A stretch of DNA of 64,000 nt from an uncultured Prevotella sp. GTDB taxonomy: Bacteria; Bacteroidota; Bacteroidia; Bacteroidales; Bacteroidaceae. Positions within the stretch are counted from its first letter, which is position 1. Every line of letters starts with the position of its first letter. The position numbers and the translations under genes were made by a program. The notes beneath the pieces were generated by a model. The model was given only the letters and a program-made list of their open reading frames with translations, was not told the DNA's origin and ran no database searches. Positions 3,695-53,597 of the stretch are shown here, in pieces. The stretch covers positions 28,850 to 92,849 of the forward strand of contig CAMVJQ010000003.1 in NCBI GenBank assembly GCA_947167845.1, written 5' to 3'.

Positions 3695-5686
<1,992 letters not shown>

Positions 5687-45441: not shown

Positions 45442-45472
45442 TTTGGCTTTTCAGAAAAAATGTGTAACTTTG
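45442..45472 (+). promoter_or_regulatory. Bacteroidota-type promoter of the ncRNA candidate
   Basis: TTTG (45442-45445), 19 nt, TAACTTTG (45465-45472). Confidence 0.75.
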
Positions 45473-45477
45473 CCCCT

Positions 45478-45805
45478 GCATTGCGTGTTATAGCCAGTGC
45501 AGGGGTAAATCCTTGTCGGCAACATTCCAGAGGGAGTGGCGCTTTTGGCTAAGACGCGATGAAGGGACGTGTGGCTGTCTTTGCTTACAGCAAGCGGGCC
45601 GGCGGATGTTCCGAATTTTTGCTGAAGATAAGATTCGTATCTTATGACTGAGGTCTTTGTGTCTAATGTTGGCGCATGAAACGAAAAGTAACCTTGGGCT
45701 AAGGATACGCCGTTATGGCGTACCCTATTCCAAACGTTTACTTTTCAGGGTTTGCGCCAACTACCCGACACTAAGGACTATTAGGAATCGGGTACCCTTT
45801 TTTAT
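45478..45805 (+). ncRNA. candidate structured noncoding RNA or leader, about 330 nt, upstream of the type III R-M genes
   Basis: Consensus promoter upstream; stems ATAAGAT/ATCTTAT (45628-45645), GTTGGCGCA/TGCGCCAAC (45668-45761) enclosing AAAAGTAA/TTACTTTT and TACGCC/GGCGTA; ACCCGA...TCGGGT followed by a T-tract at its end. Confidence 0.55.
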
Positions 45806-45939
45806 TGTCGGCAACCGAGATAACTAAGAACAGATAACGTAGAATATTTAGATCAAAAAAGTTGGCGCTTTATGAAGAATCTAAAACTATCGTCTGTCCG
45901 CTACTATCGTTGTACCCTAACCACAGGGAGGGTACGGCT

Positions 45940-47808
45940 ATGAGCAGGCATATAGACAAAGAGGCTCTGGTGGCAGCCGTAATGTCATCAACAGACTTGG
46001 ACAACGAACAGAAGTCACAACTCATCCGTCTGATTCGTGAGCAGAAGAAATATGGTTTGGTATGGGAGGACTCCACGGAGGATGCCTGGGAGAAGATGAA
46101 GACGAGCATCCCCGTGCTGAACGAGGTGGACGACAAGCGAATCCTCAACGACAAGGCTGGCGAGCACTATCCCAACCACGCTATCATCGAGGCTGACAAC
46201 CTGCATGCCTTGATAGCGCTCACCTATACCCATGCTGGGATGATTGACGTGATTTACATCGACCCACCGTATAATACGGGCAACAAGGACTTCGTCTATA
46301 ACGATTCGTTCATTGGCGAGGACGATGCCTACCGTCATAGCAAGTGGCTGGCTTTCATGGAGAAACGGCTTCAGATTGCCAAGACGCTGTTGTCGGAGAA
46401 GGGCGTAATCTTTATCTCGATTGATGATAATGAGCAGGCGAACTTGAAGCTGTTGTGTGATGAGGTGTTTGGAAGTAGTAACTTTATTGGATCATGTTCA
46501 TGGTTGCGTAAAAAGAAAGGAAGCAATTTGAGTAAAGAATTTCGTAAAGTTACGGAATATGTATGTATATACAAAAAGGGGATTACAAATATTGAACTAT
46601 ACGGAGAAAAAGCTTACGCAGAAAAACTTGTCCCATTATTAAACCGCCCAAATAATGAAGCTACAGTGTACTTCAGGAAAGGAACTGCCCATATAGGACG
46701 TGATGTGAAAACTAATATAATACCAAAAGGATTATATGGTGATGGAGAATTAACGGTTGAACTATTCAATGACCTTATAATTGATAGAGATATAATAATC
46801 AACGATTTTTCGATTAAAGGGAGGTTTAGGTGGTCTCAAGAAACAATAGACTATGAATTGAAAAATGGGAGTGTTTTCTATTTCAGTAAAACGCTCCGTA
46901 TTAATGTACAAAGATATAATCAAGGAGAAAAATTTAAAGCAATGTCTTCTTTAATTGGGATAGATGACAAAATCGGCACCAATGAAGATGCAACGCAAGA
47001 ATTAAGGACTATTTTTGCGGAGAAAGATACATTACCCTTTGATTTTCCCAAACCGACTTCATTAATAAAATACGTCATAAATTCTGCTACAGCCGCAACT
47101 AAAGACTCCACCATCCTCGACTTCTTCGCTGGCTCCGGCACCACGCTCCACGCTACGATGCAACTGAATGCCGAGGACGGAGGCCATCGCCAATGCATCC
47201 TCGTGACGAACAACGAGAACAACATCTGCGAGGAAGTGACCTACGAGCGCAACAAGCGTGTGATTGAGGGCTACACCACGCCGAAAGGCGAGCAAGTGGC
47301 AGGCCTGAACCATAACAACCTGCGCTATTACAAACTGGACTTCAACCCGCGCAAGCAGAGTCATCAAGGCAACCGCGAGTTGTTCTACGGTCTGAAGGAC
47401 CTGCTCTGCATCAAGGAGAACATCTATCAGGAGAAGCAGCAGTTTGGCTCGCTATCGTTAGAAGGCAAGGAGCAGATGCTCCGCTACTTTGCAGAGAACG
47501 GACGGGAGATGCTGATGGTGTGCGATACGAGGGTCCTCCCCTTTATTGTCAATGAGATAGCACAGAGAGGCGAGCAGGAACAGCCCCTGAAAATCTACAT
47601 CTTTGCAGACGGAGCCTATCCCTACGCCGATGATTTCGCAAGTGTCGTGGATAAGGTGTCGCTTGTCCCTATGCCCTACGCCTACTATCGCGGCATCAAG
47701 GACTCGCTGCCTGAAGAGACAACAACAAAGGTTGACGATACAGAACTGACCAACGAGGAACAGCAGGCGATGATGGCGGAAGCCATCGCGTTTGAATCAA
47801 AAGAATAG
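45940..47808 (+). CDS. mod: type III restriction-modification DNA methyltransferase (Mod)
   Basis: IDVIYIDPPYNTGNKDFVYND, KWLAFMEKRLQIAKTLLSEKGVIFISIDDNEQANLKLLCDEVFG, ILDFFAGSGTTLHATMQLN; start set at ATG 45940. Confidence 0.92.
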   Translation: MSRHIDKEALVAAVMSSTDLDNEQKSQLIRLIREQKKYGLVWEDSTEDAWEKMKTSIPVLNEVDDKRILNDKAGEHYPNHAIIEADNLHALIALTYTHAGMIDVIYIDPPYNTGNKDFVYNDSFIGEDDAYRHSKWLAFMEKRLQIAKTLLSEKGVIFISIDDNEQANLKLLCDEVFGSSNFIGSCSWLRKKKGSNLSKEFRKVTEYVCIYKKGITNIELYGEKAYAEKLVPLLNRPNNEATVYFRKGTAHIGRDVKTNIIPKGLYGDGELTVELFNDLIIDRDIIINDFSIKGRFRWSQETIDYELKNGSVFYFSKTLRINVQRYNQGEKFKAMSSLIGIDDKIGTNEDATQELRTIFAEKDTLPFDFPKPTSLIKYVINSATAATKDSTILDFFAGSGTTLHATMQLNAEDGGHRQCILVTNNENNICEEVTYERNKRVIEGYTTPKGEQVAGLNHNNLRYYKLDFNPRKQSHQGNRELFYGLKDLLCIKENIYQEKQQFGSLSLEGKEQMLRYFAENGREMLMVCDTRVLPFIVNEIAQRGEQEQPLKIYIFADGAYPYADDFASVVDKVSLVPMPYAYYRGIKDSLPEETTTKVDDTELTNEEQQAMMAEAIAFESKE

Positions 47809-47821
47809 AGATATGACGGAT

Positions 47822-48328
47822 TTAGGGCTTCATGGAGTTGAACATAGCAGTTTCCTCATCGAAGAAGGTGATAACTTCCTCGGCCTGAGGGTGATTTCGT
47901 GGAACAATGATAGCTACATATTCCTTGTAGTCCTTATTCTGCGGGTTGTCACCCTTAATCTCAGCCGTCTTAAAGAAATAACGCGCCTGTTGCCCAGCTT
48001 TGTTGAACCAATAGGAGAAGAGCCTTGCTCTCTGAGCTTGCTGCTCTCCGGCAGTGCTGCAAATGTAAAGAAGAATATCCGGATTTTTTCTAAAGAACTC
48101 TTCGATGATGCAAAATACGGTCTGCCAGATTTTCATGTCTTTGGGGGAAGCAGCTCCGCTCATGTTTACGAGATTAAACCAATATGCAACAAAGCGTGTA
48201 TTATCCTCCAAAGAGAAATCCACAAAGTATTTCAAGTCGTAGTCCGTCTCAAAATAGAAACGATTAGACTCCTCCCATACATGATAAGAAGAGAAAAGAT
48301 TGATAAGATTAACGTCAAGGTGATTCAT
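47822..48328 (-). CDS. DUF6169-like protein, second gene of an antisense two-gene cassette
   Basis: 168-aa ORF opposite to mod/res; start lies just after the stop of the 57-aa ORF. Confidence 0.6.
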   Translation of the reverse strand: MNHLDVNLINLFSSYHVWEESNRFYFETDYDLKYFVDFSLEDNTRFVAYWFNLVNMSGAASPKDMKIWQTVFCIIEEFFRKNPDILLYICSTAGEQQAQRARLFSYWFNKAGQQARYFFKTAEIKGDNPQNKDYKEYVAIIVPRNHPQAEEVITFFDEETAMFNSMKP

Positions 48329-48588: not shown

Positions 48589-50922
48589 ATGATTGAACTG
48601 AAAGACTATCAAAAATCGGCCGTCAGGCAACTGAAGGAGCGCATCGTGGATATGCTCAGCTGGGACGGGATGCGACAAAAGCTGGTGCTGAAGGCCCCGA
48701 CGGGCAGCGGCAAGACGGTGATGACCTCTGCCCTGCTCGACGAACTGAAGCGCGACCTGGAGATGAAGTTCATGGACTGCGCCTACATCTGGATAGCACC
48801 CAACAAACTGCACATACAGAGCTATCTGTCGTTCAGGAACTTCTTCAGCGAGACGCGTTCGCTGCGCCCCGTGATGTTCGATGAGGCTGACCCTGCCGAG
48901 GGCTTACGGCCAGGACAGGTGCTCTTCCTGAACTGGGAGAGCATCAACAAGGAGAATGCCGTGCTGATACGCGACAACGAGCAGAACCGCAACCTCTACC
49001 AGTTGACGCGACGCACCCAGCAGAAGGGCTTGCCCATCATCGTGGTGATAGACGAGGAGCACATGTTTGGCGGCAAGAACGCCAAGAAGAGTGAACTGGT
49101 GCTGCAGAATATCATGCCCAAGATAGAACTGCGCGTCTCGGCCACTCCCATCACTGGCGGCTGTCCGCTGATAGAGGTGCCTCGCCATCAGGTGATAGCC
49201 GAGGAGATGATCAAAAAAGGCATCGAGCTGAATCCCCAGTTGAAAGGCTCGAATGAACTGAAGATGGACGACCAGCTACTGGAACAGGCCCTGGAGCGGA
49301 GGAATAACCTGGCCAGAGCCTACAGGCAGTATGACATCAACCCGCTGCTGCTGATACAGTTGCCCAACGACACGAAAGACACCCTCGACACAGAGGAGAA
49401 GACGCTGGTGAAGGAGATTGAGCAATATCTGGACGTGAACAAGGACATCAACGTGAGCAACGGCAAACTGGCCGTCTGGCTGAGCGACCGCCATGAGAAC
49501 CTGCACGACATCGAGAAGAAGAACAACATGGTGGAGGTGCTGCTTTTTAAGCAAGCCATCGCGCTGGGCTGGGACTGTCCCAGGGCCTCAGTGCTGCTGA
49601 TTTACCGAGACATCAAGAGCATGACCTTCACGGCACAGACCGTGGGACGTATTCTCCGCATGCCCCAACAACAGCACTATCAGAACGAGGCGCTGAACTA
49701 TGGCTATGTATATACGAACCTCAGCGCCGACAGAGTGGAGATCGTGAAAGACGACATGAACTACATCTCTACGCTCTACGCCAAGAAGCGCGAGGATGCA
49801 CGACGTATAGAACTGAACGCCGTCTATCAGGACCGGCGAAAGACGCCACACGTGCTGATGTCGCCGTTCAAGGAGTTCTTCAAGCAGGTGGTGGCCCAGG
49901 AGTGGAACCTGCCACAGACAGAACTATGGGGGGCCGACATGGGCTGGGATGACCTTGGGAAGGATGACCCGTCGGAAGAAGAGGCAGACTACACCTTCTC
50001 GGAAAACAAGCGGAAGGCTGGCAGGCACGGCATCCGAACAGATGTCAACAAGATCATGGTGAAGATTCCCAAGGACTTGCTGATAACAGGTGAGATAGGC
50101 CGTACAGACGTTGAAGATATTGCCCGCTTTGCCCGCACTCAGGATGAGCTGCTGGTATCGTTCTACCAGTTCTGTAGGAAAAATGTAGGCGACTACGAGC
50201 CTGGACAGAGTTCGGAGATGATACGCTCGGCCATCTACGAGTTCTTCGAGGACTATCTGGGCATGCCTCAGAACGATGCCATCAAGGTGGTGCTCTACCA
50301 TCTGAACAAGCCGAAGTTCGCCGCCTATCTGGCCAAAGCAGAGGCAAGGTATGCCGAGGAATACGAGAAGCGAGAACAAGAGCGTAACCCAGAGGTGTAC
50401 GTGTCGTTCAAGTGGGAACTGCCCGACACGAGGATGTATAACTCGGAGGTGAGCCACCATTGCGCGGACATCTATCATCATGCCCTGCTGCCCTTCTTTG
50501 AGGAGAACAGGGTATCGGAGCCAGAATACAAGTTCAGCCGTATGCTGGACAAGAACAACGAGGTCATCGACTGGTGGTATAAGAATGCAGACAGTGGGCA
50601 CATGCACTTCGCTGTGGCTTATACCGATAAGGACGGCGTGCCCCGCTGCTTCTATGTGGACTACATCATCCGTCTGAAGAATGGCACCGTCTGCCTGTTT
50701 GACACCAAGTCGAAGGACAGCGACCCCAATGCGCCCAACAAGCACAATGCGCTGCTGAGGTATATCAAAAGCGAGAACGAGAAGAACCACAAGCGACTAA
50801 TGGGCGGCGTCATCATCGAGCAAAACGACAACTGGTATTACAGTCCGCTCAACATCGAGAACACCACGGACCTGACAGGATGGGATGCGCTGGACCTGGC
50901 CACGATCAATGTAGAACCATAA
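48589..50922 (+). CDS. res: type III restriction enzyme subunit (DEAD/DEAH helicase + nuclease)
   Basis: LKAPTGSGKTVMTSALLDEL, IIVVIDEEHMFGG, SATPITGG, TVGRILRMPQQ. Confidence 0.92.
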   Translation: MIELKDYQKSAVRQLKERIVDMLSWDGMRQKLVLKAPTGSGKTVMTSALLDELKRDLEMKFMDCAYIWIAPNKLHIQSYLSFRNFFSETRSLRPVMFDEADPAEGLRPGQVLFLNWESINKENAVLIRDNEQNRNLYQLTRRTQQKGLPIIVVIDEEHMFGGKNAKKSELVLQNIMPKIELRVSATPITGGCPLIEVPRHQVIAEEMIKKGIELNPQLKGSNELKMDDQLLEQALERRNNLARAYRQYDINPLLLIQLPNDTKDTLDTEEKTLVKEIEQYLDVNKDINVSNGKLAVWLSDRHENLHDIEKKNNMVEVLLFKQAIALGWDCPRASVLLIYRDIKSMTFTAQTVGRILRMPQQQHYQNEALNYGYVYTNLSADRVEIVKDDMNYISTLYAKKREDARRIELNAVYQDRRKTPHVLMSPFKEFFKQVVAQEWNLPQTELWGADMGWDDLGKDDPSEEEADYTFSENKRKAGRHGIRTDVNKIMVKIPKDLLITGEIGRTDVEDIARFARTQDELLVSFYQFCRKNVGDYEPGQSSEMIRSAIYEFFEDYLGMPQNDAIKVVLYHLNKPKFAAYLAKAEARYAEEYEKREQERNPEVYVSFKWELPDTRMYNSEVSHHCADIYHHALLPFFEENRVSEPEYKFSRMLDKNNEVIDWWYKNADSGHMHFAVAYTDKDGVPRCFYVDYIIRLKNGTVCLFDTKSKDSDPNAPNKHNALLRYIKSENEKNHKRLMGGVIIEQNDNWYYSPLNIENTTDLTGWDALDLATINVEP

Positions 50923-51167: not shown

Positions 51168-51602
51168 ATGCAGATACAAAAGATTAAAGCGACCAACTTC
51201 AAGACCTATCTGAGTCTGGATCTGGACTTGCAGGTTGAAGACGAGTGCCCCATTATATTAATAGGTGGACTGAACGGTGGAGGTAAGACTACGCTTTTCG
51301 AGGCCATCTATGGTGCCCTTTATGGTTTGAACATCAAAAACAAGAGGCATTTTGAAGAACTGCTGAACAACGGTGCCTTTGGCAAGACAGAGCCAAAGAT
51401 AGAGTTGGAACTGGTGTTTACAGGTCAGGTGCTGCATCAGACTCAGAAGTATATCCTCCGAAGAACCTATATACTGAACAAAGCCGAGAAGCCGGTCGAG
51501 TCAGTCTATCTGAACATGAATGGCAGCGTGTTTACATACGGAACAGCCACTCCCGCAGCACAGAGAGCGAAATGCCAAATCCCGATAAGGACGACAGCGT
51601 AA
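51168..51602 (+). pseudogene. N-terminal fragment of a DndD-like AAA/SMC ATPase
   Basis: QIQKIKATNFKTYLSLDLDLQVEDECPIILIGGLNGGGKTTLFEAIYGALYG (Walker A) then abrupt end after about 130 aa. Confidence 0.6.
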
Positions 51603-52180
51603 CATCTGTTCTGAAGCAACTCGACAGAGCGCACCTCTTTGCAGAAGAAGACAGAGTGGATTTAGTGAAAGACTCGTTTATCGTCAAGATGGACTCGTAC
51701 CCTAAAGACGGACCTGTAGCCAAAGCAATTGTCTATTTTGTCATTTCCAAACTTAACAATATTTACGAGAAACTGGAGAAACAGGCTGTCAGCGAAGACT
51801 ATGTAGAGATCCGCCACTTCACCATCATTGATGAGGCCCACTATATGTTAAGTTTCGACAACCGGCCTCTTAGGAATCTGATTGCCGTAGGACGGAATAA
51901 GGGACTGAGCATCATCCTGGCAACACAGAACATGGATGACTTCAAGAGCAAGTCTTTCGATTTCTATGCTAATGCACAATATCCTCTGATCATGAAACAG
52001 CAAAGCATCTCCGATGGTGTGCTGAAGGATATCTTTGGCGTATCAGGAAAGGAGTTCCTTGACCTGAAAGCGGCCATTTCCGGACTACAGAAAGGAGAAC
52101 TTGTCATCAAAGACAATACGGCAGACATCCTTGGCATAGGCAAGAAATGGAAGAAGATTAAGGTTTCACATCTAATCTAA
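51572..52180 (+). pseudogene. C-terminal fragment of a DptH-like (HerA/FtsK-type) ATPase
   Basis: VEIRHFTIIDEAHYMLSFDNRPLRNLIAVGRNKGLSIILATQNMDDF (Walker B/sensor region) with no Walker A upstream; different frame from the DndD-like fragment. Confidence 0.6.
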
Positions 52181-52355
52181 CTATAGTTTCAGAGGTTCGG
52201 CATATGACAAGCAAAATGCCCTACAAAAGTCGGTGATAACTGGGTACAAGATATTGAACGCCCTATTTCCTGAACTTGAATGAAAAAGAAAAAATGGGTT
52301 TTCTTTTTCATTTCTCTCACTTATTTCGTAACTTTGCAGCAAATTGCAAAGGCTT

Positions 52356-53597
52356 ATGAAGATATTACATACCAGTGACTGGCATCTCGGCCACACATTA
52401 TATAATTACGACAGGACGGAAGAGCAGCGGGCGATGCTCCTGCAGATGGTGAACATCGTGGAGGAGCAGAAGCCTGACGTGTTCCTCCTGTGCGGCGATG
52501 TGTATCATACGCCACAGCCATCGGCTGCCGTGCAGACCATGCTGGCCGATGGACTCGTGCGGATCCACGAGGCCTGTCCGGAGATGACAATCGTGATGAC
52601 GGCCGGCAATCACGACAGCGGTACGAAGCACGAGATATTCCAGACGCCCTGGAAAGCCCTGAAGGTGTATGCCATCGGCCAACTGGAGAAGGACCATTCG
52701 GATGAACACATCATCGAGGTGGCGGGAAAGGGCTATATCGTCGCTGTCCCGTATGCTAATGAGCGGAATATCCCTGAGGGCTTCTTCCAGCAGTTGCTGG
52801 ACAGGGTGGCAGAGAGGAATGTGGAAAACCTACCAGTAGTGATGACTGCCCATACAACAGTAAAAGGCTGCGACTTCAGGGGGCATGACCACGCGACGGA
52901 GTTAACCGTAGGCGGTATCGACTCGCTGGAACTGGCGAACATGGGCGAGGGCTACGACTATCTGGCGCTCGGGCACATCCACCATGGGCAGTTTGTGCAT
53001 AGCGGCAGGCACAAGGCTGCGATTGAGCGAGAGCAGGGCGATGCATGCATCGGCTGTGCTGAGCGTGAGCAGGCTCGACTGAAGGTCAATGTGAGATACA
53101 GCGGCACGCCACTGCCTGTGAGTTTCGACGAGAACTTCACCCACTCGGTGAGCATCGTGGAGATAGGTAGGCATGGAGAGACACCTGCGGTCAAGGAGAT
53201 CGAGATCCAGAATCCGCATCCCTTGGTGACGCTGCCTACAAATGGATTTACTACATGGGAAGAGGCAAAGACGCTGTTGGGCAAATTCCCTGACGATATT
53301 CCTGCATACATCCGTCTGAACGTGGAGATAGACGACTTCCTGCCCGTAGAGGCCAATGCCGAAGCCGCCAGTCTGACGGATGGGAAGCAGTGTCGCTTCT
53401 GCTGTATCAATGCCAAGCGCAAGGCTGTCGGACAGGAAGATGTCAAGGTGTTGACGGTACAAGAATTCCAAGAGGAGAAGCCCATCGAGATTGCCAGGCG
53501 CTATGCAGAATACGAGGGCATCAGTTTCGACGAGGAGATGCAAGTGATGTTTAACGAGGTTATGGATATGGTGGCCGAAGAATCGCGCACGGATTAA
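52356..53597 (+). CDS. sbcD: SbcD-type DNA repair exonuclease subunit (metallophosphoesterase)
   Basis: MKILHTSDWHLGHTLYNYDRTEEQ, LCGDVYHTPQPS, TAGNHDSG, YLALGHIHHGQ; start set at ATG 52356. Confidence 0.88.
   Translation: MKILHTSDWHLGHTLYNYDRTEEQRAMLLQMVNIVEEQKPDVFLLCGDVYHTPQPSAAVQTMLADGLVRIHEACPEMTIVMTAGNHDSGTKHEIFQTPWKALKVYAIGQLEKDHSDEHIIEVAGKGYIVAVPYANERNIPEGFFQQLLDRVAERNVENLPVVMTAHTTVKGCDFRGHDHATELTVGGIDSLELANMGEGYDYLALGHIHHGQFVHSGRHKAAIEREQGDACIGCAEREQARLKVNVRYSGTPLPVSFDENFTHSVSIVEIGRHGETPAVKEIEIQNPHPLVTLPTNGFTTWEEAKTLLGKFPDDIPAYIRLNVEIDDFLPVEANAEAASLTDGKQCRFCCINAKRKAVGQEDVKVLTVQEFQEEKPIEIARRYAEYEGISFDEEMQVMFNEVMDMVAEESRTD

Follow-up and report, generated by a model that had tools for sequence, protein, structure and literature searches.

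The window studied here, i.e., the whole 64,000-nucleotide stretch of DNA from an uncultured Prevotella sp. that was analysed, carries a type III restriction-modification (R-M) system with both Mod and Res present. These genes are preceded on the same strand by a structured RNA, and the locus comprises the following features:

45442..45472, + strand: Bacteroidetes-type promoter read from the sequence (-33 TTTG at 45442-45445, 19 nt spacer, -7 TAACTTTG at 45465-45472)
45476..45803, + strand: whole RNA from its inferred start point to the end of the U-tract (promoter, U-tract, fold z of -5.4)
45628..45645, + strand: P1 hairpin ATAAGAT-TCGT-ATCTTAT (sequence), with GTATC kept in nearly all relatives (aligned rows)
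45647..45655, + strand: X strand ACTGAGGTC of the pseudoknot helix, partner X' AACCTTGG at 45690-45697 (duplex energies, column counts)
45668..45676, + strand: M5 arm GTTGGCGCA, partner of M3 (helix of 8 pairs, 99.2% paired, double-sided change in 8/8 pairs)
45684..45691, + strand: middle helix 5' strand AAAAGTAA, with 3' strand TTACTTTT at 45738-45745 (covariation)
45703..45711, + strand: core5 strand GGATACGCC (covariation)
45717..45731, + strand: core3 strand GGCGTACCCTATTCC, partner of core5 or alternatively of T (T:core3 energies, three-way covariation)
45753..45761, + strand: M3 arm TGCGCCAAC, in the alternative fold inside a small GGGT/ACCC hairpin (45748-45751 / 45763-45766)
45785..45796, + strand: T strand GGAATCGGGTAC, which can pair with core3 and supplies the 3' half of the putative terminator stem
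45798..45803, + strand: U-tract (sequence); a U-rich tract lies at the 3' end in 56/56 measurable loci
45860..45868, + strand: start-site copy of M5, AGTTGGCGC, complementary to M3 and 3 nt before the ATG of the 23-codon ORF
45872..45943, + strand: short leader ORF of 23 codons, MKNLKLSSVRYYRCTLTTGRVRL, whose stop overlaps the mod start (ATGA; sequence)
45940..47808, + strand: type III DNA methyltransferase, mod (PADLOC MTase_III, E 2.5e-87; Pfam N6_N4_Mtase)
48589..50922, + strand: type III restriction subunit, res (Pfam ResIII, E 3e-15; PADLOC REase_III)

With a promoter at its head and a U-tract at its end, the RNA spans 45473-45803 (start at about 45473-45476), and the folding energy of 45478-45805 is lower than that of all 100 dinucleotide shuffles (z = -5.4; 0/100 as low). 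Its innermost hairpin, TACGCC-GTTAT-GGCGTA, is found at 45706-45722, and ACCCGA (45763-45768) and TCGGGT (45788-45793) lie upstream of the U-tract. An initial annotation made from the sequence alone had proposed a structured RNA candidate at 45478-45815, and the promoter, nested hairpin arms, ATAAGAT hairpin and ACCCGA...TCGGGT motif that it described are all present where it had placed them. Its size estimate of ~330 nt holds only in part: the conserved core is just ~180 nt long (about 45626-45803), and the first 150 nt belong to a 5' domain that varies and, in most relatives, is far shorter. A coding origin was rejected since a 30-codon ORF in this 5' domain is not conserved in relatives (sequence comparison).

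Short ORFs comparable to the 23-codon leader ORF precede mod in several relatives (loci L018, L019, L021, and L023-L026), and this, with its overlap of the mod start, suggests translational coupling. A minus-strand ORF of 168 aa and unknown function lies between mod and res (47822-48328). Further downstream (51168-53597), two ATPase-like ORFs, the first of them AAA-ATPase-like, overlap in different frames and are followed by an SbcD-like nuclease ORF; judging by eye only, this neighbouring system might be broken or fused.

A DNA search of 399 congeneric genomes revealed 13 others with detectable similarity to the RNA of the window. Eleven aligned copies gave a consensus structure of 27 pairs, 14 of which show double-sided changes, and were used to build a covariance model (R1), while R2 is a broader model. 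R1 matched in 74/399 congeneric genomes, several of which carry 2 or 3 copies, with a few weak matches being false; the weak matches L241 and L251 look false. Removal of identical copies left 114 RNAs, including 70 representatives below 93% identity, and 23 further, mostly weaker, model matches were added later. Scanning GTDB genomes for a pattern yielded 84 stretches. Those confirmed by R1 are titled Prevotellaceae, Bacteroidaceae, Bacteroidales, Muribaculaceae, or Alloprevotella, with many rumen assemblies, and include the cultured Prevotella communis E15-14 and Prevotella sp. P6B1 as well as Bacteroidales KHT7 and Prevotellaceae HUN156. Pattern matches in Streptomyces and Rhodospirillaceae were not confirmed by R1. 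Among other genera, no family RNA was detected in 294 genomes of the order (R1) or 377 of the phylum (R2); these samples overlap partly (~670 genomes), and the stricter filters used may lose weak matches. An origin in phages or plasmids was rejected, as the RNA sequences that were tried had no match in either. The TAnnTTTG -7 box is found upstream in 67/69 family representatives (8.4 expected from shuffles).

Comparison of these relatives shows that the family is a genuine structured RNA and new to Rfam 15, without transcript evidence. In an alignment of 62 sense-strand sequences (A4), 92.7% of the cells of the nested structure are paired, and 0/500 shuffles were as good. Double-sided changes are seen in 288 cells compared to 91 in shuffles and ~20-50 in slid versions. 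Since A4 was fitted to the R1 structure, it favours that structure somewhat, and the same helices rank first in a mutual-information scan of an earlier alignment. The X:X' pseudoknot helix has a mean energy of -10.7 kcal/mol within its own locus versus -7.2 kcal/mol when swapped between the 70 representatives (0/20000 permutations as low). The permutation tests used throughout preserve column make-up but not ancestry, so that their P values overstate independence. At gathering threshold, cmscan gave no Rfam 15 hit for the window and 13 diverse relatives, be it to large ornate RNAs, riboswitches, or any other family, and a relaxed threshold gave only chance matches for the window. The initial annotation had not recognised the class of the RNA and had named a known housekeeping RNA or absent covariation as refutations; its call of a structured RNA candidate withstood both. 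We found no description of this family in the open-licence literature searched, which leaves out most subscription journals.

The genomic association of the family, likewise shown by comparison, is with modification-based defence in general. Our census of downstream genes covers 134 loci with >150 nt of downstream sequence, 127 of which have a labelled gene class; the other seven include the false matches L241 and L251 as well as L236. In about 125/132 cases, the RNA immediately precedes a gene, intact or fragmentary, that is recognised as modification-based defence; for this figure, the two false matches were removed and loci L066, L072, and L108 were not counted as recognised. The loci are not independent, given that 56 are of the DpnII type. 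The associated classes (PADLOC or Pfam) comprise DpnII-type R-M, type III R-M (at least 3 lineages), split type IIG, type IIG, and type I/IIG-like systems, BREX (BrxP, BrxC), SspBC, HmaAB, DrmD with a methyltransferase, HKD-Snf2, cytosine methylases with a nuclease, and an EcoRI-type methylase (at L236, with an adjoining HNH nuclease gene). Between the U-tract and the first defence gene, which shares its strand, lie ~30 to 140 nt. The link to type III R-M suggested by the initial annotation therefore held only in part: such a system does follow in the window, yet a type III-specific RNA is rejected since most family copies head other systems. In the 399 congeneric genomes, DpnII nuclease genes are found both with (29) and without the RNA (23, contig edges excluded), so the RNA is an optional addition to the enzyme system and not a required component.

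Outside the recognised defence association fall L022 (mod lost), L153, L246 (contig end), and L248. The latter is a very divergent copy (minus strand, approx. 3962-4129; E 0.002) that has a start-site copy yet no recognisable defence gene nearby and is likely a relict. The RNA also heads an operon with HerA-like and HATPase-containing genes at L066 (3202-7868) and L072 and an unknown 464-aa protein at L108 (3206-4600), none with a confident family assignment; these are candidates for unrecognised defence systems. At L228 (approx. 380-560), a DpnII-type locus that lacks the family RNA, a long inverted-repeat leader of another kind, AACGCTCTG...CAGAGCGTT, lies upstream of Dam and is possibly another structured RNA.

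Two helices of this RNA cannot form at the same time. The core3 strand is complementary both to core5, its own 5' strand, and to T just before the U-tract, with which it can form a stem of ~20 bp; core5:core3 and core3:T are thus mutually exclusive helices sharing core3, and both are supported by covariation. Columns 118 (core5), 150 (core3), and 270 (T) change jointly—G-C-G in most sequences and A-U-A in the split type IIG group—with the C to U change of column 150 accompanying changes in both others. This three-way coupling is the trace expected of a terminator/antiterminator pair. Mean T:core3 energy is -26.2 kcal/mol within loci, -20.5 when swapped between loci, and -11.1 when shuffled (0/20000 permutations as low). 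The order expected of an attenuator, i.e., terminator stem, U-tract, and then a gene on the same strand, is present in 56/56 loci. The alternative pairings themselves are shown by comparison, and these two mutually exclusive folds make "leader switch" a more apt term than the "large ornate RNA" to which the initial annotation had likened the element. Counting against a switch, the local ACCCGA/TCGGGT hairpin of the window could act as a terminator without core3. The small hairpin around M3 scores no better than shuffles by a generic score and narrowly beats the control in a position-specific swap test.

The M3 arm has a second potential partner in many loci, namely a copy of M5 at the start site of the downstream mRNA. 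Such a copy, 8 nt or longer and no more than 6 nt away from an ATG, was found in 39/85 representatives versus 8% of swapped dissimilar pairs; many of these pairs share a TCCGACCA-like motif, and a few of the 39 copies may be due to chance. Across relatives the copy varies with the arm (AAGTCGACCAA, AACTGGCCGG, TCCGACCA, CAATCTTCCG, CGTCCCTTCCAC, AGCGTCCTACCA, and others; ~ten motif sequences), and the match between M3 and the downstream region averages 7.75 nt in own pairs versus 5.97 nt in swapped ones (permutation maximum 6.62). Several weak model matches fetched late also carry the start-site copy, a feature not used in finding them. The start-site copies are predicted to be more unpaired than their surroundings in 21/24 loci, and M3 to be exposed in a loop of the alternative fold. 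Complementarity covarying with the start region, as expected of antisense pairing at a start site, is seen in part of the family but not for most DpnII and BREX loci. With the copy mostly missing at DpnII, BREX, Hma, and DrmD-type loci, any translational arm cannot be general. The M motif as recognition sequence of Mod was set aside because closely similar motifs precede unrelated enzymes.

Taken together, we consider it more likely than not that the RNA forms the 5' leader of the defence operon and acts as a switch between two states, with termination, masking, direction of control, and trigger all being inferred in the absence of expression data. In state A (ON), core5:core3, M5:M3, and X:X' would form and leave T free, so that RNA polymerase would go on to transcribe the defence genes, with their start codon unmasked. 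In state B (OFF), some factor would keep the long arm's 5' half from forming or take it apart; core3 would then pair with T, and the resulting stem of ~20 bp plus the U-tract would end transcription. M3, now in a hairpin loop, could pair with the start-site copy of mRNAs that escaped, in cis or in trans, and such masking would be added to transcription attenuation in some lineages (about half of the representatives). State A is predicted to be more stable than state B in 70/70 representatives (mean 11.7 kcal/mol, not counting the X:X' pseudoknot), and therefore the default is probably read-through, while state B and thus switching off would need an active trigger, which counts against the model. 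Because one RNA family serves unrelated systems, we infer that the signal is a shared one, from the host or from infection, and not something made by the individual operon.

The best surviving alternative, which we nevertheless regard as unlikely, is that the RNA acts on its own as a terminated small RNA, repressing its neighbour and maybe other mRNAs in trans via loop-loop pairing of M3 with start sites, and that the defence gene has another promoter. The RNA's own promoter and U-tract would fit this idea, as would M3 in a loop, exposed start-site copies, and matches at many motif sequences. However, about half of the representatives have no start-site copy, most DpnII and BREX loci among them, and the RNA almost always lies directly before the gene. 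In the gap that separates RNA and gene, none of 56 loci has a Bacteroidetes -7 box, though chance alone would give only 1.9 and no other promoter type was looked for.

Other explanations appear very unlikely to us. A ligand-binding riboswitch proper, e.g., for S-adenosylmethionine (SAM), which nearly all associated systems need for methylation, would agree with the compact pseudoknotted fold, the attenuator-type output, and the methyltransferases of most associated systems. Yet no Rfam riboswitch matches, most positions are variable without an invariant unpaired pocket seen beyond short motifs, and the system found at the SspBC loci (L080 and others) is not known to require SAM. An insulating terminator plus promoter that shields the defence operon from read-through without any switching would account for the strong terminator-like T:core3 stem and the U-tract in every measurable locus, but it leaves the M helix, X helix, and start-site copies unexplained and makes no sense because the RNA's own promoter lies upstream of the terminator. 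The tight linkage to defence genes could also indicate a working part of their machinery, such as a guide, a retron-type template, or an RNA antitoxin, but the linked systems have no common protein component and DpnII loci of the genus occur with as well as without the RNA. No reverse transcriptase (as for a retron), no Cas-like gene, and no ToxN-like hit (as for a type III toxin-antitoxin system) was found among the downstream proteins scanned, and no tandem units were seen in the aligned RNAs. Finally, an action as DNA (operator or recombination site) with incidental RNA-like pairing has the inverted repeats in its favour, partly detected by the model on the antisense strand, but both folds tolerate G-U pairs, which are common in them, and the orientation of promoter and U-tract fits one strand only.

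A bolder reading would be that a single infection- or stress-responsive RNA switch serves as a common control module for self-marking immunity and decides when these systems are made. We currently lean slightly against this reading; if true, it would have no known counterpart. How R-M, BREX, Ssp, and similar systems spare the unmarked genome of their own host, and whether they are induced by phages, is largely open. With one RNA family before more than 10 unrelated systems, regulation by a common cue becomes directly testable in cultured carriers, and the RNA can serve as a marker for unrecognised defence genes like those at L066/L072 and L108.

Similar to attenuators and riboswitch leaders, the family combines a promoter, a structured leader, exclusive helices with a common strand, a U-tract, and a gene on the same strand. 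It differs from them in having no known ligand and no leader peptide within the RNA, an antiterminator that is a pseudoknotted long arm, and defence instead of biosynthesis genes downstream. As in loop-loop antisense RNAs, the M3 loop complements an exposed start-codon sequence, but the family RNA lies upstream of its target on the same strand instead of opposite to it and shows this feature in only about half of the representatives. R-M systems are known to be regulated by C proteins and antisense RNA (reviewed in PMC3874152), and the family RNA presumably also controls the level and timing of their expression; unlike in these cases, one RNA module is common to unrelated systems, and no protein regulator or reverse promoter was identified. 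A further parallel is AbiF with its RNA, where a phage defence gene is under RNA-based control (PMC12373285). Such control is inferred for the family described here, to which we found no relation in Rfam, and it would extend from the one defence family of AbiF to more than 10.
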